Source: an uncultured Clostridia bacterium (lineage in GTDB: Bacteria; Bacillota; Clostridia; Christensenellales; UBA3700). Taken from it: 32,009 nucleotides of DNA. A program made the position numbers and the translations under genes. Within the stretch, counting starts at the first letter, position 1. Every line of letters begins with the position of its first letter. The notes beneath the pieces are model-generated. The model ran no database searches. It saw nothing but the letters and a program-made list of their open reading frames with translations, and was not told where the DNA came from. Positions 2,735 through 19,311 of the stretch are shown piece after piece. Location of the stretch: assembly GCA_946623205.1 (NCBI GenBank), contig CAMOQV010000004.1, positions 1 through 32,009 of the forward strand. Direction: 5' to 3'.

Positions 2735-3751
2735 CTATTTATCCTTTTCCTCAGCATTTAGATCTGCATTATTCGCTTCGGAATCAGAAACCGTAGTTTC
2801 ATTATTTATTTCTTCTTTGTTTTCAATTTCAACATTTTCTGCAGGCGCTTGTTCTACGTTAACGCCCTTTGCAGCAAGTTTTGCTTGAATTTTTTGAGTA
2901 TGTGCATCGATTATAGCACCAAAACGCTTAGATTCGAAATGGATTTTGTTTGTATACAACAAAACCAATAACACAATACTTACTAATGCCATTACATAGC
3001 ATATAACTTGAATTGAACCTACATTTGAAGATCCAATTTTTGTATTATCTATCTTTAAAAATTCTAGTGAGCCTCTAACTAATCCATACCATCCAAGGTA
3101 ATATAAAGAAACTGTTCCAGGCTTTAATTTGTCTTTATATTTTCTATAAACCAAATATCCAACTAAAAGGCCAACCAAGTTTATTACGCCTTCATAGAAG
3201 AACAATGCACTATACCAACCCGGCTCATATCCTGGATAGAATCTTGCTGGATTATCTATGTATACTGCAAATGGGAAATGTTGTAATGCTGGATTATCTA
3301 TTGGAAGGCCGAACAATTCTTGGTTAAAGAAGTTTCCCCAACGTCCAATAATTTGTCCAACCAAAACTGGCAATGCAGCAGCGTCAGATACTCTAACAAA
3401 GTGATATTGTCTATTTTTCAAAACAGAAATAGCTATGCCTAATAGTCCACCAAAAATACCACCAACAATAGTCAATCCGCCTTCACGGATGTTTATCATA
3501 TCAATAAACGATGTATATTCCGTTCCTATTCTTGGTACTACATAGAAAACTCTACAGAAAATAACCGCAAGAACTAGTATCCAAATAAATGTTTCTAGAG
3601 TGAAATCTATATCTATTTTTTGCAATTTTGACATATGCAAAAACATTAAAAAGGCACACAAAATGCCTGTTGTTACAACAATACCGTACCATGCGATATC
3701 AATACCGCCGATTGAAAACGCAATCGGATCTAATGCTAATAAATAATTCAT
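2735..3751 (-). CDS. lgt: Prolipoprotein diacylglyceryl transferase with an acidic C-terminal extension
   Basis: IDIAWYGIVVTTGI, GGLTIVGGIFGGLLG, IIGRWGNFFNQELFG, RFYPGYEPGWYSALFFYEGVIN; start overlaps galK stop (TAATG). Confidence 0.95.
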   Translation of the reverse strand: MNYLLALDPIAFSIGGIDIAWYGIVVTTGILCAFLMFLHMSKLQKIDIDFTLETFIWILVLAVIFCRVFYVVPRIGTEYTSFIDMINIREGGLTIVGGIFGGLLGIAISVLKNRQYHFVRVSDAAALPVLVGQIIGRWGNFFNQELFGLPIDNPALQHFPFAVYIDNPARFYPGYEPGWYSALFFYEGVINLVGLLVGYLVYRKYKDKLKPGTVSLYYLGWYGLVRGSLEFLKIDNTKIGSSNVGSIQVICYVMALVSIVLLVLLYTNKIHFESKRFGAIIDAHTQKIQAKLAAKGVNVEQAPAENVEIENKEEINNETTVSDSEANNADLNAEEKDK

Positions 3752-5007
3752 TATAGTTCTACCTTGCATGCCCCAACGTTTCTTACTTGAATATGGAACA
3801 CATTTTCTTTTCCAAATACTTTAGACATCTCATTTACATAATTTTGTACATCATTTTTATCCATATAGGCAATAATTGTACCAGCAAAACCGCCACCATG
3901 AACTCTTACAGCTTTTACGCCCTTTATTTGCTTAGATAGCGCAATTCCAAGTGGAATTGGTTGTGCTACAGCGCCGTTTGGGAAACAATTTTGCAACATT
4001 GTCAAAGAACTAATTCCAGATTGATTTATCATTTCGATAAATTTCTTTTCTTGTCCTTTTTGCAATGCTTTTTTAGCAATGTCTACTCTCTTATTTTCAT
4101 TAAAGTAATGGATAGCTCTTTCAATAGCTCTATCTGATACTTCATTTCTTAAAGATGCAATTTTATTATAGAATTCATCTTCTTTAACCTTTCTTAGCTT
4201 TTTAGCGTGGAAGCATTTAGCAACAGCTTCCATTTCTTCACGAATTGCAGCGTATTCCCCTGTTAAATTACAGTGATCGCCACCTGTGTTTGTAATAACG
4301 ATAGCCAAGTTTTCAAATGGCCAATCAATCTTTTCTACTTTTGGTTCTTTTGTAGATTTGAAATCAATATAGCTAACGCCACCAATTGATATTGCGCTTT
4401 GATCTAAAAGTCCACATGGTTTTCCGAAATATTCACTTTCGCCCATATGTGCAGCTTTTGCTTTTTCGATAGCGCTAATTTTTCCATCGTTAAACATAAC
4501 GTTTAGAATTTCAGCAACTAGTAATTCAAATGATGCAGATGAAGAAACTCCGGCTCCCTTAAATACATCTGATGTTGTAGATGCAGCAAAGCCACCAATC
4601 TTATATCCGTTTTGCTTATAATAAGCAAGAACGCCTCTTACAAGTCCTTCGCTCTTTCCAAATTCTTCTTTATGAACTGTTAAATCATTAATATCTACAT
4701 CAACTACTGGATAACCAATAGACGCTATAGTAATTTTCCCTTCTTGTGGAGTTACACAAGCAATAGTATCTACTGAAATAGAAGCACATAAAACCTTTCC
4801 ATTATTGTGATCTGTGTGGTTTCCGCACACTTCAATTCTCCCAGAAGATGAGAAGAATTCACAATTACCACTATATGTCTTTTTGTGTATGTTATATAGG
4901 TCTTCGAATCTTTTGGCTTGATATTCTGCTTTGCCGTCGCCATATAGCAACTTTGATGTTGCTAAAAACTTCTTATTTTCTAGTAATTCTTTTGCTGTAA
5001 TGCCCAT
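3751..5007 (-). CDS. galK: Galactokinase
   Basis: GRIEVCGNHTDHNNGKVL signature, GAGVSSSASFELLVAEILN, RVHGGGFAGTIIAY. Confidence 0.95.
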   Translation of the reverse strand: MGITAKELLENKKFLATSKLLYGDGKAEYQAKRFEDLYNIHKKTYSGNCEFFSSSGRIEVCGNHTDHNNGKVLCASISVDTIACVTPQEGKITIASIGYPVVDVDINDLTVHKEEFGKSEGLVRGVLAYYKQNGYKIGGFAASTTSDVFKGAGVSSSASFELLVAEILNVMFNDGKISAIEKAKAAHMGESEYFGKPCGLLDQSAISIGGVSYIDFKSTKEPKVEKIDWPFENLAIVITNTGGDHCNLTGEYAAIREEMEAVAKCFHAKKLRKVKEDEFYNKIASLRNEVSDRAIERAIHYFNENKRVDIAKKALQKGQEKKFIEMINQSGISSLTMLQNCFPNGAVAQPIPLGIALSKQIKGVKAVRVHGGGFAGTIIAYMDKNDVQNYVNEMSKVFGKENVFHIQVRNVGACKVEL

Positions 5008-10997: not shown

Positions 10998-12455
10998 TTA
11001 TTTAACGAATTTTGAAATATTTTTGGCAACATCAGAAGCCAAAACTCCATATTGAGAATAATCTTTTTCTAAATCTTTTGCGCTTATTGCACACAAGTAT
11101 GCACCCATATATGCTGCTTGAATATTTTTATAACCTTGGGCTAAAAGCCCAACTATTACTCCAGATAAAGTGTCCCCAGATCCGCCCTTTGCAAGAGCTG
11201 GAGTTCCATTTACAACTAAATATTTTTCATTTTCATTTGCAATAATTGTAGATGAGCCTTTAAGTAGTAATGTTGCTTTTCTTCCCTTCATTAAATTATC
11301 TACAAATGTCATAGAATCTTCCAAAATTTCTTTAACATCTCTTGATGTCAATCTAGACAATTCTTTTGGATGTGGAGTTAAAATAACATTTTCTTTATCT
11401 AAAAGATAATCTATCTTACCTTCAAAGGCATTTAAGCCATCTGCATCAATTAAGATTGGACCATTAAAGTTTTCGATAACATAACGTATAATCTTTTCGT
11501 TTTCAGCCTTATTTGGGCCCATTCCTATACCAATTGCAATAGAAGTCGATTGAGATATAATCTTATCTAAATTATCTTTATCAAATTTAAGATATCCATC
11601 TTCATCTTTTAATAGCATAATAGTACTTTCAACAACTGATGGAGCTATGGCGTCATAAATAGATTTTGGAATCGCTAAAGTGTTTAATCCTGCACCGACT
11701 CTAAGAGCAGATACGCCCATGTTAGCAATCTTTATTGCACCAACAAAATTTTTGCATCCGCCTATGATTGTTGCCTTTCCAAAACTACCTTTATTTGTAT
11801 TATTATTTCGCTTATTAAAGACTATGTCTTTATCTTCAATAATTTTTGCCGTATTTTCAAAAGCTTCAATTCCAATATCTTTTACAACAATATCTCCAAT
11901 ATAATCTTTTCCATCTTGTAGAAAATGGCCATATTTAGCATATTGAATAGCTATAGTTTTTGATGCTTTAACTGCTTTATTTGTTACTCCACTTTGGCCA
12001 GATAATCCGCTTGGAATATCTACTGAAATAATATATGCATTCGATGCATTAATCTTCGCTATTATATCTTTGATATCTTCTCTAACTTCACCGCTAAATC
12101 CTGTTCCCAAAATACAATCAACAATGATATCTGCATTGTAGTCACACTTAGATATATCAAAGATATTTTCATATCCTTTTACTCTATCAAAAAAGTATTG
12201 AGAATCTTGAGATAATTTTTTAGATGTTAAATACAAATATGGTTTATAACCATCTTTTAAAAATAATTCTAAAAGCGCAATTCCATCTCCGCCATTATTA
12301 CCACCGCCTGAGATGATATATATCTTTTTATCTTTTCTATCTATTTCTTCATATACAGCTTTTGCTGCTCTTTGCATTAATGTTAATGAGCCAACTTTTT
12401 CAATTTGCTTTTGATCGAATAATTTCATTTGATTAATGCTTACACAATTCAACAT
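10998..12455 (-). CDS. nnr: Bifunctional NAD(P)H-hydrate repair enzyme (epimerase + ADP-dependent dehydratase)
   Basis: N-terminal YjeF domain (ISGGGNNGGDGIALLELFLKDGY, VDIPSGLSGQSG) and C-terminal carbohydrate-kinase-like domain (ILTPHPKELSRL, GTPALAKGGSGDTLSGVIVGLLAQG). Confidence 0.94.
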   Translation of the reverse strand: MLNCVSINQMKLFDQKQIEKVGSLTLMQRAAKAVYEEIDRKDKKIYIISGGGNNGGDGIALLELFLKDGYKPYLYLTSKKLSQDSQYFFDRVKGYENIFDISKCDYNADIIVDCILGTGFSGEVREDIKDIIAKINASNAYIISVDIPSGLSGQSGVTNKAVKASKTIAIQYAKYGHFLQDGKDYIGDIVVKDIGIEAFENTAKIIEDKDIVFNKRNNNTNKGSFGKATIIGGCKNFVGAIKIANMGVSALRVGAGLNTLAIPKSIYDAIAPSVVESTIMLLKDEDGYLKFDKDNLDKIISQSTSIAIGIGMGPNKAENEKIIRYVIENFNGPILIDADGLNAFEGKIDYLLDKENVILTPHPKELSRLTSRDVKEILEDSMTFVDNLMKGRKATLLLKGSSTIIANENEKYLVVNGTPALAKGGSGDTLSGVIVGLLAQGYKNIQAAYMGAYLCAISAKDLEKDYSQYGVLASDVAKNISKFVK

Positions 12456-13072
12456 TACTCGTCCTCGTTTGCTCTAACCTTATCTATAGCAGATTTTATT
12501 TGCTCCCAATCATATCCTCTATATTGCAAGAATCTTACTAATTGCGCATAAACTTTTGGGTCATCTAAATCTTTGTTTAATGCTTTCTTCCTAGCCAAAA
12601 CTAAACAGCCATCTTCTTCGTCATAATCTTTCAACACTTCATCGATTATCTTTTGATCTATTCCCTTTAGCATCAACTCTTGTTTAAGCTTTAGCTTGCC
12701 TTTTAATTTTCTATTTTGGAATACATAGCTTTGTGCATATTTTTCATCATCAATATAGCCATAGCCTTTACATTTTTCTATAACATAATCTACGACTCTT
12801 TTTGAATATTGCTTATCATAAAGCTTATGCGTCATTTGCTTTTGAGATGGAACATATTTGCAAATATAATCAACTGCATAATTGAATGCATTTTCTTTTT
12901 CAGATTCAAAAACCATATCTAAAAGCTTTTCTTGTGAAATTTCTTTGCCTGGCAAAAGTTGATTTTGAATAACAACAAGCATAGACATAGCGCATGTAAA
13001 TTCGCCATCTAAAAACACATTGCATCTTTCTGGATTATGCTTTTGAGGTTCTACTTTAGTAATTTTAGCCAT
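12455..13072 (-). CDS. recX: Regulatory protein RecX
   Basis: AKITKVEPQKHNPERCNVFLDGEFTCAMS; repeats LKGKLKLKQELMLKGIDQKIIDEVL and RFLQYRGYDWEQIKSAID. Confidence 0.88.
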   Translation of the reverse strand: MAKITKVEPQKHNPERCNVFLDGEFTCAMSMLVVIQNQLLPGKEISQEKLLDMVFESEKENAFNYAVDYICKYVPSQKQMTHKLYDKQYSKRVVDYVIEKCKGYGYIDDEKYAQSYVFQNRKLKGKLKLKQELMLKGIDQKIIDEVLKDYDEEDGCLVLARKKALNKDLDDPKVYAQLVRFLQYRGYDWEQIKSAIDKVRANEDE

Positions 13073-16000
13073 TAGTCGAAATATTTCACTCCGCTTTCAA
13101 ATATCTTCATATCTAAATTGCCGTCTAAATTCTTATACAAATCTTTTGATACTCTTTCTGAATTACCTGTCTTTCCGAAGATTCTTCCATCTGGAGAAAT
13201 CAAGCCTTCAATAGCATACATACTACCATTTGGGTTGAATGGAGCTGTCATTGTAGCATTGCCTACAATGTCTACATATTGCGTAGCAACTAAACCATCT
13301 TTTATTAGATTTCCAACGGCCTCTTCTGTGCCGACAAATCTTCCTTCCTTATGAGATACAGGCACTAAGAATTGTTCACTTAATCTTGTCTCACTCAACC
13401 AAGGAGTCTTGTTTGTAGCAACTCTAATTCTTGCAATTGATGAAATATGCTTTGGAATTGTATTTGTTGCTAGCGTTGGCGCATTTATAGGCTTTTCTTG
13501 GGTAATCTTACCATATGGCAAAAGTCCTAAGTCTAATAGCGCTTTAAAACCGCTACCAATACCTAAAATCAAGCCATCTTTATTGTTTAACAATTCCATT
13601 ATTGCATCAGATACTTCTTCTGATCTAAACAAAATAGATATTTGTTTACTTAAGTTTCTAATTCCATCTGGAAGCGCCAAAATTTGTGTTTCTTGAATTC
13701 TCTTTGCGAACGCATCTATAGATTCCAAAACATCATCATGAGACATGTTTTTAAATCTAAATGTTTCTACATTTGCTTTTGCATCATAGAATGAAGAAAC
13801 TAAATCCCTTTCAGATAATGTGCCATCAAATATTGGGATTAATACTCTAGGCTTTATTCTTGGCGTTTGTTTTTCAACTTTTTTAGCACAAGAAATCAAA
13901 TTACCTGCATTACCATATTCTTTTGCTCTAACTGGATAAATAGAATCCAGTGGATCAATATATGCATCTATAACATCGCTCATTCTAAATTCAGAACCAC
14001 AAAGCTCTGCCGTATGTGTTCCATTTATTGTTGCGATATGCTTAATTTCAAATTTACTAAGTTCAGATAAATCTTCACCTTGAATTACAAAATCCCCAAG
14101 TAGTGGCGCATAGGAATCTTCAAAGATTTCTTCCCAAGTTGTTCCTAATCTATTGCCCATACAAGATTTAAATGTAGCAGAAATTACACCACCTTCTTCA
14201 ACGACGTTACAAGCCTTGATACCGCCTGTAATAATTGCTCTATGAAGTGCTACACATAATTCTTTATAGTATTTAAAATCTGGGACTCCATATTCATCTC
14301 TCTTTAGAGGAACATGGTATATTTCATTTAATGTTGGATCTTTGTGATCTTCAAATACATTAGAAATTGTCTTTGATGCTTTTGTTATACCTACAGCAAA
14401 AGAAATAAGTGTTGGAGGAACATCTAAATCCTCAAAACTTCCGCTCATTGAGTCCTTACCGCCAATTGCATAAACACCAAGCTTTTCTTGTGCATAGAAG
14501 GCACCTAGCATAGCACTGACAGCTTCGCCCCATCTTTCATCTTCATTTCTAAGCTTTTTAAAATACTCTTGCAAAGAAATATAAATATTTTCAATATCTA
14601 CACCTGCAGCAACTTGCTTGGATATAGACAAAATAATTGAATATATTGCTCCAACGAATGGAGATTTTTCTAATAGATTTGGTACACAGCCATATGTTAC
14701 TGCAGTTGCAGTATCAGTTTTGCCCTTTACTGGCAATTTCTGAACTGAAGCAATTGTTGGTGTCAATTGATATCTTCCGCCGTGTTGGGCAAGAACAGTT
14801 GATGCCCCAAGCGAGAAATCAAAAGTTTCACTAAGTCCCTTTTGAGAACAAACTTCTAATCTCTTTAATTCGCTCATAAGCGCAGTCTTGAAGTCACCCT
14901 CTTCAAACAAACGTCTTGTATCTTGATATGGCTTATCAAAATAATCAAACACATTTTGATCAGTAATGCTAGCTGATGCTTTTTCTTTTACAAGCGTACT
15001 ATCTTTAAAGAAGCTCTTTTTAACATCAAACAAGCACTTATTGTCATAGTACATTCTAATTCTTCTTGTTGATGTAATTGTAGCAACAGCCGCAGCTTCT
15101 AGATTCTCATCATTTGCAAGCGCAATGAATTTTGCTACATCGTCTTTAGACAACAATACTAAGAATCTATTTGGCGTTTCAGATACTGCAATATCTTCTC
15201 CTTTAATGTTGTCTTGTATTGTTGGAACAAACTCAAGGTTAATATCGATACCTTGGTCTATCATTTCAGATATTGCACAAGCAATACCGCCAACGCCGAT
15301 ATCAAATGCTTTCTTAATTAATAATGATGCTTCTTTATTTGCAAATAATCTTTGTAACTTTTTTAAAGTTAGAGGATCACCCTTTCTAATCTTTGTTTCC
15401 TTTTTAGTTCTAGCACCAACTATAACAATAACGTCATCTTTAACTTCTTTATCTCTTACAATCTCGTCTTGCTTAACAGCACCAACAACAAACGCACATT
15501 CAAGGTGCTTTGCTCTATATCCTCTATGATACAACTCATGTACAAGACAAAATGGTACACCAGTATGGTTAGCTGCTGCTGCAGCTCCCTTTGCAGATGT
15601 TCTTGAAATAGTAAATGGAGCATGCTTTCCTGGGATATCACTATCCTTAATTCTAGGATCAGAGTTTCCTGAAATTCTTGCTCCTTGATATACATATGCT
15701 CTTTCTGAGATAGGATCTCTTATAACGCCTTCAACACAAGTTGAAGCTCCTGAGAAAGGTTCGCCTTCTGTTTGAGAATTATCTGTTTCATTTTTAAATG
15801 ATACCCACCATTTTTGACCCTTTCCGTCTACATCGACATCTAATGCAATAGTAGAAGAATGGTCTTCTGGTGATTTTTCTAATTCTTTTAATTTACCTTT
15901 TTTGATTTGGTTGTTTTTAGATATTGTAGCGATATCCATTAAAGACATTACCTTTTGGGCATCCTTTTCTTTCATCTTTTTATACATATCCAAAGCTTTT

Positions 16001-16722
16001 TGAATATGTGGATTATCTGCTTTAATGGCTACCTTTGTAAGCTTTGTATTAAATGTGGTATGTCTTACTCTATCTGATAAATAAGTATCTAAAACTTTTA
16101 GCTCAAAACCAGATGGATCTCTACCTTCTTCTATGAAATAATCTTTTATCGCAAGCGCATCTTCTAAATCCATTTGAAGATTTTGATCTTCAATAAGTTT
16201 AACCAATTCTGCATCATTTAAGTTGTTAAATCCAGAGATGTTGTAATCGTCTTCTACCTCTTCTTCCTCTTCAACTAAAGTTAGTGGCATCTCCATTGAG
16301 CCTTCTTTATTAAAACGCTTATTAATGAAATAGTCTTTTAACTTATATAATTGTTCAGATGTAATTCCAGATATAGCATAAACAGTAGCTGCTTTTATGA
16401 TTGGATGAGAATCTGTTATTAAAACTAAATTTGAATAAATATCTGCAAGTTTATTATTGTATGAGCTATCTACTGATTCTACGACTATTGTTGAATAGTT
16501 TCTTCCAAGTGGAAATCTATCATACACAACTTCAGTAGCAACATCACTAAAAATTGTTGTCTTTGCTATATCAAAAATATTCTCACTCATGTTCTCAACA
16601 TCATATCTAACAAATTGTCTGAAGTCTTCGACTTCAATATCCAAATGGTTAAATATGTGCCTAACTCTTATAAACGCGTCTGAATATTCTGATTTCTTTT
16701 CAACAAAAATTCTCTTTATCAT
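13072..16722 (-). CDS. PurL-like protein: full-length homologue of long-form phosphoribosylformylglycinamidine synthase with predicted loss of synthetase and glutaminase active sites
   Basis: Family clear from KRIFVEKK N-terminus, VLDTY.SD..RHTTF, FKNET, IRDPISERAYVYQ, WGEAVSAMLGAFYAQ, IGGKDSMSGSFEDLDVPPTLISFAVG, PVSH.EGRF, MYAIEGLISPDGRIFGK.G.SER. Catalytic residues substituted (see findings). Track start 16779; ATG at 16722 preferred (upstream AGGA, matches family N-terminus). Confidence 0.9.
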   Translation of the reverse strand: MIKRIFVEKKSEYSDAFIRVRHIFNHLDIEVEDFRQFVRYDVENMSENIFDIAKTTIFSDVATEVVYDRFPLGRNYSTIVVESVDSSYNNKLADIYSNLVLITDSHPIIKAATVYAISGITSEQLYKLKDYFINKRFNKEGSMEMPLTLVEEEEEVEDDYNISGFNNLNDAELVKLIEDQNLQMDLEDALAIKDYFIEEGRDPSGFELKVLDTYLSDRVRHTTFNTKLTKVAIKADNPHIQKALDMYKKMKEKDAQKVMSLMDIATISKNNQIKKGKLKELEKSPEDHSSTIALDVDVDGKGQKWWVSFKNETDNSQTEGEPFSGASTCVEGVIRDPISERAYVYQGARISGNSDPRIKDSDIPGKHAPFTISRTSAKGAAAAANHTGVPFCLVHELYHRGYRAKHLECAFVVGAVKQDEIVRDKEVKDDVIVIVGARTKKETKIRKGDPLTLKKLQRLFANKEASLLIKKAFDIGVGGIACAISEMIDQGIDINLEFVPTIQDNIKGEDIAVSETPNRFLVLLSKDDVAKFIALANDENLEAAAVATITSTRRIRMYYDNKCLFDVKKSFFKDSTLVKEKASASITDQNVFDYFDKPYQDTRRLFEEGDFKTALMSELKRLEVCSQKGLSETFDFSLGASTVLAQHGGRYQLTPTIASVQKLPVKGKTDTATAVTYGCVPNLLEKSPFVGAIYSIILSISKQVAAGVDIENIYISLQEYFKKLRNEDERWGEAVSAMLGAFYAQEKLGVYAIGGKDSMSGSFEDLDVPPTLISFAVGITKASKTISNVFEDHKDPTLNEIYHVPLKRDEYGVPDFKYYKELCVALHRAIITGGIKACNVVEEGGVISATFKSCMGNRLGTTWEEIFEDSYAPLLGDFVIQGEDLSELSKFEIKHIATINGTHTAELCGSEFRMSDVIDAYIDPLDSIYPVRAKEYGNAGNLISCAKKVEKQTPRIKPRVLIPIFDGTLSERDLVSSFYDAKANVETFRFKNMSHDDVLESIDAFAKRIQETQILALPDGIRNLSKQISILFRSEEVSDAIMELLNNKDGLILGIGSGFKALLDLGLLPYGKITQEKPINAPTLATNTIPKHISSIARIRVATNKTPWLSETRLSEQFLVPVSHKEGRFVGTEEAVGNLIKDGLVATQYVDIVGNATMTAPFNPNGSMYAIEGLISPDGRIFGKTGNSERVSKDLYKNLDGNLDMKIFESGVKYFD

Positions 16723-16796
16723 TGATTGTCCTAAATTATTATCAAAATCTATAGTTAATTTTAACACATTTGCGCGCACATTTCTATTAAAAGAAA

Positions 16797-16820
16797 ATAG
16801 GTGGCCGAAAAACCACCTAT
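16797..16820 (-). terminator. Terminator of the parE-parC operon, upstream of the purL-like gene
   Basis: On - strand ATAGGTGG-TTTTTCGG-CCACCTAT followed by TTTTCTTTT. Confidence 0.85.
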
Positions 16821-16854
16821 CTTCACTATGTTATATAGAACCTAACTCAATAAT

Positions 16855-19311
16855 CTAAATTAAATTGTGAGCATAAATCGCATATATTACAGATTCATAC
16901 TTCTTCTTAGCTACCTTCTTTAGAATATTCTTGCCCTTAGCTGTTCTTGCTTCGATATCTACATCATCAGTATTTACAGCAACCAAATCTCCATCAACAA
17001 AGAATATAGCAAAATCATATGGATTTGTTACCAAAGATACAAAGGCAAGATCTTTAGGTTTTGATACATCACAAAGGGTTACACCCTTTCCGTATCTATT
17101 CTTTGGCTCAATTGTTGGCAAGATAACTCTCTTTGCAATACCATTTGCAAGGATAACTACAATCTCACCTTCGTTTCTATTTTGAGCGACATATTTAACC
17201 TTATCTTTATCGTTCAATTTAATGCCCTTAACACCTGAAGAACGTCTTCCTTGATCTGGAACATCAGCATATGCATTTAGGATATTACCAAGCTCTGTTA
17301 CAAATACGATATATTCAGAGTCTTTGTCTACTATTTCAACATTTATTACTTGGTCGTCATCTTTTAGGATAATTGCTGGATACGTAGCCTTTTTATCCAT
17401 TGGATATTCAGCTGCAGATGTCTTTTTGATCATACCATTTTGCGTAGCAAAGTATAATTCTTTGTCCTTCAATTCTGCTTCGCCAAATAAAGCTACAATT
17501 GCATCGTCAGAATCCAATTTTCCTAGCTTATTAATAGTTGTTCCTTTAGATTTCCATTTATCTTCAGTCAACATGTCTACGCTAAATACGCATGCTTGAC
17601 CGTTTTTGGTTAGAGCTATTAATCTTTCGTCGCCATTTACCTTTATTGCTCTCTTAACAAGTTCGTTTGCTGAGCAATTAACGATGTTCTTTTGAGCCAT
17701 CTTATATGACTTATCAGTCATAAATCTTAAAGTTCCTTGATAATTTAGAAGAACATATCCAGAAACTAAATGAGCTTCAATAATCTCTTCAGCTTTAATC
17801 ATTTGTGGATGTTCAGCTTCGTCAACAATTTGCGTTACACGAGGCGTAGCAAACTTAGCTTTAATCTCTAATAATTCTTTCTTAACAATATTCAATTGCT
17901 TCTTTTTAGATTCAAGAATTGATTGAAGCTCTGCAATCTTCTTCTTTAGATTCTCAAGTTCTTCTTCCATCTTATGAACATCTAATCTATTCAATCTCTT
18001 TAATGGAATATCTAATACAGCTGTTGCTTGCTTATCTGTTAAGTTAAACTCTTTTCTTAATGTCTCTTTTGACTCTTCATATGTAGGTGAAGATAAGACA
18101 ATATCTACGACACGTCTAATGTTATTTACAGCAACTAAAAGACCTTCTAAAATGTGTGCTCTATTTGAAGCTGCTGTTAAGTCATATTCGCTACGTCTAA
18201 AGATGACTTCTCTTTGGAATTCTACATATCTTGATATGTAGCCAAGCAAAGATAATTGCTCTGGTTTACCATCTGCAATTGCCATCATATTAACATTAAA
18301 TGCACACTCTAATTGTGTTGATTTATATAGGCCTGCTAAGATACGTTTTGCATTAGCTTCTTTCTTGATTCTAATTACGCAACGAATACCATCTCTATTG
18401 GATTCATCGTTGATATCTTGAATTCCACCATACAAATCTTTCTTTGTTTCTCTAAGACCATTAATTCTCTTTAGAAGTTCAGCTTTATTTACTTGGAATG
18501 GAATTTCTGTAATTACAATACTTTCTTTATCTCCATCTTTTTCGATAGAAGCTTTTGCTCGCATTATAACTTTTCCCTTACCAGTTTCGTATGCTTCTTT
18601 AATTCCATCACTATTTATAATCAAGGCGCCTGTTGGGAAATCAGGAGCTGGGATGTATTTCATCATTTCATCTAAAGTAATTTTACTGTTATCTATGTAT
18701 GCACAAACACCATCAATAACTTCACCTAAGTTATGTGTTGGAATATTTGTAGACATACCAACAGCAATACCAGATGAACCATTTACTAATAGATTTGGGA
18801 ATCTTCCTGGCAATAAATCTGGTTCTTCTAATGTATCGTCAAAGTTTAGAACCATCTTAACCGTATTTTTATCCAAATCTCTTAAAAGTTCCATTGCAAG
18901 TGGCGCAAGCTTTGCTTCTGTATAACGCATAGCAGCTGCACCATCACCATCTACAGAACCATAGTTACCCTGTCCAGAAATTAGTGGCATTCTTACGTTG
19001 AATGATTGCGCAAGTCTAACCATTGCATCATAAACTGAACTATCTCCGTGTGGATGGTATTTACCTAAACAATCACCAACTACTCTTGCAGATTTAACAA
19101 AAGGTTTATCTGGAGTAATACCCAATTGGCTCATTGTATATAGGATTCTTCTTTGTACTGGCTTTAAGCCATCCTCAATTCTTGGGATAGCTCTATCCAT
19201 GATTACGTGTTCAGAAAATGGAATCATTGAATTATGAAGTACTTCTTCAACAGTACATTCAAGCATCTTTGATGTATCTTCTATATTCTCATCATTTTTC
19301 TTTCTTGGCAT
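16855..19311 (-). CDS. parC: Type IIA topoisomerase subunit A (topoisomerase IV ParC-like / GyrA paralogue)
   Basis: [47 protein letters not shown] (catalytic Tyr), [24 protein letters not shown]; no QRRGGKG GyrA box at its usual place. Confidence 0.85.

Follow-up and report, generated by a model that had tools for sequence, protein, structure and literature searches.

Why would a bacterium keep a full-length homologue of the biosynthetic enzyme PurL that has lost the catalytic residues of both its active sites? The question is raised by a gene denoted PurL* here, which lies at 13072..16722 on the minus strand of a 32,009-nucleotide stretch of DNA (the window) from the genome of a gut-type clostridial bacterium, a MAG of 1.32 Mb that is 87% complete.

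The two former active sites of PurL*

PurL* is a catalytically degenerate homologue of the long-type FGAM synthases, with 1216 residues. It matches the TIGR01857 profile over its full length (positions 1-1239) with a score of 1030 bits, or 1023 bits in the genome search, which is under the curated equivalog cut-off (1057 bits) that defines membership among active FGAM synthases. Its fused glutaminase domain (GATase_5; Pfam PF13507, E 6.4e-51) spans residues 957-1215 (13078..13854, minus strand, as are the other features of this gene given below). The nucleophile elbow reads GIGSGFKAL and the histidine motif GKTGNSER, so that Gly1056 (GGT, 13555..13557) and Asn1187 (AAT, 13162..13164) stand in place of the Cys and His that mark an active FGAM synthase, Cys1135 and His1260 in Salmonella PurL. 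Glu1189 (13156..13158), aligned to Glu1262, is the only residue of the triad to remain. These equivalences come from a family-profile alignment to 1T3T-type chains, in which the chain index is the native number plus 8. The Cys, the His and the Glu each occur in all of the canonical long-type PurLs compared from this order (37 of 37), and a literature search for mutants of the exact Salmonella residues yielded nothing. The initial annotation had reported both substitutions at these same codons, the survival of Glu alone, and the motifs DGTLSERD, PDGIRNLSKQ and PVSHKEGRF, and all of these readings were reproduced. The orthologue in G003, an independent MAG, is 81% identical and shares both the Gly and the Asn, and the more distant orthologue in G004 likewise has Gly at the Cys position. 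As the changes are common to independent MAGs, sequencing or assembly error and chance are ruled out even without reads.

The synthetase active site of Salmonella PurL sits in the A1/B1 half (PMC3815217), and the corresponding half of PurL* has been extensively rewritten. FKNETDNSQ replaces FKNETHNHP (15775..15789), with Asp at His314 (Salmonella H296) and Ser at His316, Glu312 being kept, and SDRVRH replaces SDHCRH (16066..16071), with Arg at His218 (Salmonella H216) and Val at Cys219. The alignment also places a deletion of about 21 residues, comprising the Gly-rich loop GRDGCGGATGSSKAH and its flank, at about residues 442-443 (15394..15399), directly ahead of the recognizable rest of the first AIRS_C domain (residues 444-559, 15046..15393; Pfam PF02769, E 1.6e-15). 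Both the synthetase active-site His and the Gly-rich loop of an active FGAM synthase are therefore missing. PurL* deviates at 133 of the 335 columns that do not vary among active copies; by region, with approximate domain boundaries, the changes affect 14 of 22 such columns in the N-terminal domain, 81 of 142 in A1/B1, 5 of 44 in A2, none of 3 in B2 and 24 of 88 in the glutaminase domain. The acidic active-site residues Glu312, Asp336, Glu515 and Glu1189 are retained, which may leave room for a different chemistry. The prediction of the initial annotation that the protein would not hydrolyze glutamine is well supported by the loss of the catalytic residues, and so is its view that PurL* is unlikely to be simply an ammonia-dependent FGAM synthase, an identity that the lost synthetase site excludes.

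The AlphaFold2 model of PurL* (residues 6-1205, 28 homologues) has a pLDDT of 85.9 and a pTM of 0.88, in an alignment that included active PurLs and may have biased the model towards the canonical fold. In the PDB, Foldseek aligns it best, along almost its entire length and with TM scores of about 0.8, to Salmonella PurL and human PFAS. The structural comparison proposed with the initial annotation thus returns a PurL of the Salmonella (1T3T) type, and together with the coverage of TIGR01857 from 1 to 1239 it points to a full-length PurL fold; the predicted intactness of this fold is supported, short of proof.

Origin of PurL* and selection on it

The same genome codes for a second PurL (contig C79:446-4135), located between purD, which directly precedes it, and fhs (formate-tetrahydrofolate ligase). 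This copy has every catalytic motif intact, scores 1876 bits against TIGR01857, and is 40% identical to PurL* in the best stretch. Since an intact PurL is present in a purine operon, purine synthesis by the organism does not depend on PurL*, and the idea that PurL* is the sole PurL of a purine prototroph is excluded.

In G002, a genome of the same genus, a single canonical PurL is encoded by the last gene of a purE-purC-purM-purN-purH-purD-purL operon, which sits between a gyrA-type gene and recX-nnrD. This resident operon is also kept beside recX in other genera of the family (L076, L078). In the window and in G003, the contiguous order is gyrA-type gene, PurL*, recX and nnrD, the rest of the old purine operon having been deleted; the G001 contig shows no more than the gyrA-type gene and PurL*, and G004 has two unrelated genes ahead of PurL*. 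The second operon, as seen in G003 and G004, differs in type: it encodes an IMP cyclohydrolase-like PurO (PF07826) as a protein of its own, together with a short PurH that lacks the MGS domain, where the resident operon has a full-length PurH. In G004, this second operon lies at L039:2278-12259. Phylogenetic analysis groups the four dead copies (those of the window genome, G000, and of G001, G003 and G004) in one clade (SH-aLRT 100) that is sister to the resident PurL of G002, and the second PurL copies make up a clade of their own, which lies outside the family's resident PurLs. The simplest reading is that PurL* is the displaced resident copy, vertically inherited, and that the C79 PurL was apparently acquired; for the transfer of the second operon, we infer both the direction and the donor.

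The substitution pattern of PurL* indicates that the gene is maintained by selection. Pairwise dN/dS ratios (Nei-Gojobori), which are rough because dS is near or above 1, amount to 0.120 for the two closest full-length copies (G000 and G003, dS about 1.0) and to 0.193-0.200 for pairs with G001. By region, the values are 0.109 for A1/B1, 0.110 for the glutaminase domain and 0.122 for A2, the former active-site regions being no less constrained than the remainder. For comparison, canonical purL has a ratio of 0.091 and the neighboring genes range from 0.03 to 0.33, with single-gene values of 0.056 for the gyrA-type gene, 0.048 for recX, 0.21 for nnrD and 0.17 for dnaX. At a dS of about 1, two species still have an uninterrupted frame of 1216 codons and a third has one of 1240; in neutral simulations, none of 200 runs kept a stop-free ORF at 0.1 substitutions per site, and the mean was 11 stops. 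Columns that are invariant in active enzymes but have changed in PurL* show higher conservation across sister species than do ordinary ones (71% against 58%, p 0.02 by Fisher's test; 87% against 76%, p 0.01). As far as sequence comparisons can tell, this history looks like rapid change that later came under new constraint, rather than like decay. A predicted fold that is intact apart from the missing catalytic residues, together with maintenance by selection, gives PurL* the attributes of a pseudoenzyme.

The genes on both sides of PurL* are conserved neighbors, those that flanked the ancestral operon. They are the gyrA-type gene upstream, for a subunit A of gyrase or topoisomerase IV (16855..19311, minus strand), and downstream recX (12455..13072, minus strand) and nnrD, which codes for a YjeF-type NAD(P)H-hydrate dehydratase/epimerase (10998..12455, minus strand). 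Because this neighborhood is ancestral, it provides no hint as to function. A terminator-like stem-loop 3' of the gyrA-type gene (16793..16824, minus strand) is followed by an extended -10 promoter-like site (16758-16786), both of them consensus matches only, and PurL*, recX and nnrD may form a transcription unit of their own. The stop codon of PurL* and the start codon of recX overlap by one base (TAATG, 13070-13074), an arrangement that suggests translational coupling; in G002 there is a gap of about 100 bases at this junction. The proposal that PurL* is kept merely as a translated leader for recX was rejected, as it would predict no selection at the amino-acid level. Elsewhere in the window, a nicotinate phosphoribosyltransferase-like gene (1306-2757) and an lgt-like gene (2735-3769), both named by eye, overlap by 23 bases (2735-2757).

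Dead PurLs in other families of the order

Further dead PurLs were found in G151 (family f31), in G299 and G316 (f32), in G081 (f9) and in six genomes of f24. That of G151 reads FKNETRNSP in the synthetase half and has Ser at the glutaminase Cys position; in all other dead PurLs aligned at the elbow, including that of G299, the Cys is replaced by Gly (G316 falls outside the alignment). Each lineage has its own pattern of changes in the catalytic half. An AU test rejects (p = 1.6e-40) a common origin for the dead PurLs of G151, of G299/G316 and of the window clade, and the number of separate origins in the order, as judged from the sequences, is three or more; the copies of f24 and G081, on long branches and of unsafe placement, are left out of this count. 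Pairs of dead PurLs outside the window genus have dN/dS ratios of 0.13-0.24. Both active sites are lost together in every dead PurL found, across five family-level groups, which suggests that enzyme function was given up as a whole and not through two unrelated events. The glutaminase loss had initially been considered independent of that of the synthetase site; the two sites do lie in different domains, but their joint loss in all dead PurLs speaks against independence.

In G299 (L071:5294-8374) and G316 (L082:206-3268), the dead PurL is the only PurL. Neither genome (96% and 94% complete, respectively) has a PurD or PurM over the profile cut-off, three genus mates keep both, and in G299 the loss of purD and purM is seen within a contiguous stretch. 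From their gene content, G299 and G316 are probably purine auxotrophs. No PurL-like gene at all was detected in G015 and G023, of the window family, or in some other genomes of the order, so that any role of PurL* cannot be general. Several carriers of the new operon, such as G053, have no detected dead PurL.

A shorter and far more divergent dead PurL of about 1005 residues is found at L044:4036-7077, at L045:4960-7971, and in L060, L062, L064, L066 and L068. In six f24 genomes, the short dead PurL lies downstream of a protein of about 1100 residues with a lipoprotein-like start, which contains BspA-type LRR repeats in the one case scanned, and in several of them a glycosidase-like gene (identified by eye) lies downstream of the dead PurL. 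A putative membrane protein of about 170-200 residues, with no confident Pfam family (L045:4424-4957, L044:7119-7625, L059:8971-9513, L079:6461-7075), follows canonical and dead PurLs in f9, f24 and f32 and is absent from the window genus. The closest relative of the dead copy of G081 is the resident PurL of G102, a canonical one from the same family, and the G081 gene, too, is followed by the small membrane protein. This protein was rejected as an explanation for the window case, since canonical PurLs have it behind them as well and the window genome lacks it.

Reasons for retention and comparison with known pseudoenzymes

The reading that we favor, with a probability of roughly 70%, is that PurL* is the original resident PurL, displaced by an incoming operon and kept as a folded pseudoenzyme with a binding role. 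The genus would have gained a second purine operon that brought an intact PurL along, and the resident enzyme would have been displaced; of the old operon, only the PurL gene is left, retained with loss of catalysis. PurL* would then act by binding alone, as a scaffold, a regulator or a small-molecule sensor. Its interaction surface would include the rewritten synthetase half, i.e., the N-terminal domain and A1/B1, because this half is the most changed and is now as constrained as the remainder. The little-changed A2/B2 half is probably the structural core.

Dead and active PurLs coexist in the window genus (G000, G001, G003, G004), in G081 and G151, and in several f24 genomes, which would suit a dead copy dedicated to the new canonical PurL as its subunit or allosteric partner. 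This explanation, by analogy with prozyme or vGAT-PFAS, has precedents in enzyme-activating dead paralogues (PMC5201418) and in the vGAT-PFAS case itself (PMC10820379). It is unlikely, however, as G299 and G316 retain a dead PurL in genomes with no other PurL, no purM and no purD over the cut-off; partnering therefore cannot be the common reason for retention, possible as it is in the window genus. Alternatively, PurL may have had an old second function that does not require catalysis, such that dead copies remain once the purine role has been taken over or lost. The origins of dead PurLs, at least three and independent, either with a replacement operon or, in two genomes, after the loss of purD and purM, are consistent with this idea, as is the purifying selection on the other dead pairs. 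We nevertheless consider it doubtful, given the PurL-less genomes of the same family and order, the new-operon carriers with no detected dead copy, and the lineage-specific rewriting of the catalytic half; the first two argue that an ancestral second function would be dispensable or lineage-specific. In more general terms, it may be proposed, tentatively, that PurL has a hidden catalysis-independent function and that dead PurLs constitute a recurrent, unrecognized class of bacterial pseudoenzymes, kept after loss or takeover of the purine role.

The conserved new residues of the former synthetase half and the retention of Glu312, Asp336 and Glu515 might also indicate that PurL* has become a different enzyme, in which the old ATP-binding PurM-type fold is reused for another reaction. 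The deletion of the Gly-rich loop, the loss of both His residues of the HNH motif and that of the glutaminase nucleophile as well make this quite improbable. As for a pseudogene relic on its way out, the disappearance of the other genes of the old operon and the loss of the catalytic residues would suit such a relic, but long open frames at a dS of about 1, with a dN/dS of 0.12 and a mean of at least 11 stops in the neutral simulation, leave this reading hardly any credit.

A displaced core enzyme that has been stripped of both activities several times and is yet tightly conserved represents a natural experiment, which raises the question of what further roles a 140-kDa biosynthetic enzyme may have. 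Automatic annotation may label dead PurLs as FGAM synthases, and G299 and G316 illustrate the consequence, as such labels would imply a step of purine synthesis that these genomes probably lack.

With the long single-chain clostridial FGAM synthases (TIGR01857), PurL* has in common full-length homology, domain order and predicted fold; it differs from them by the destruction of both active sites and by a score under the cut-off, compared with 1876 bits for the C79 copy. Salmonella PurL (1T3T) and human PFAS (9N9W) have the same four-part architecture, which consists of an N-terminal domain, a linker, a pseudo-dimeric synthetase and a glutaminase (PMC3815217), but the equivalents of Cys1135, His1260, H216 and H296 of the Salmonella enzyme are replaced in PurL*. 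Catalytically dead relatives are known from gammaherpesviruses, whose vGAT/ORF75-type tegument proteins are PFAS homologues without catalytic residues, i.e., pseudoenzymes (PMC10820379). The vGATs (TIGR01739) are viral and of separate origin, whereas PurL* is a cellular bacterial gene derived from a resident enzyme, and the likeness is limited to the lack of catalysis; against TIGR01739, PurL* scores a non-significant 9.2 bits (E 0.24, cut-off 716) and is not a member of that family, a further mark of which is the recruitment of an active PurL/PFAS for protein deamidation. The AdoMetDC prozyme of trypanosomes (PMC5201418) is likewise a catalytically dead paralogue retained beside an active enzyme. 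In contrast, PurL* belongs to an unrelated family, dead PurLs persist with no active partner in two related genomes, and a regulatory effect of PurL* is hypothetical. A literature search that covered few subscription journals found no published bacterial PurL pseudoenzyme. Thus, PurL pseudoenzymes were already known from herpesviruses, and what appears to be new here is one that is cellular, bacterial and recurrent.
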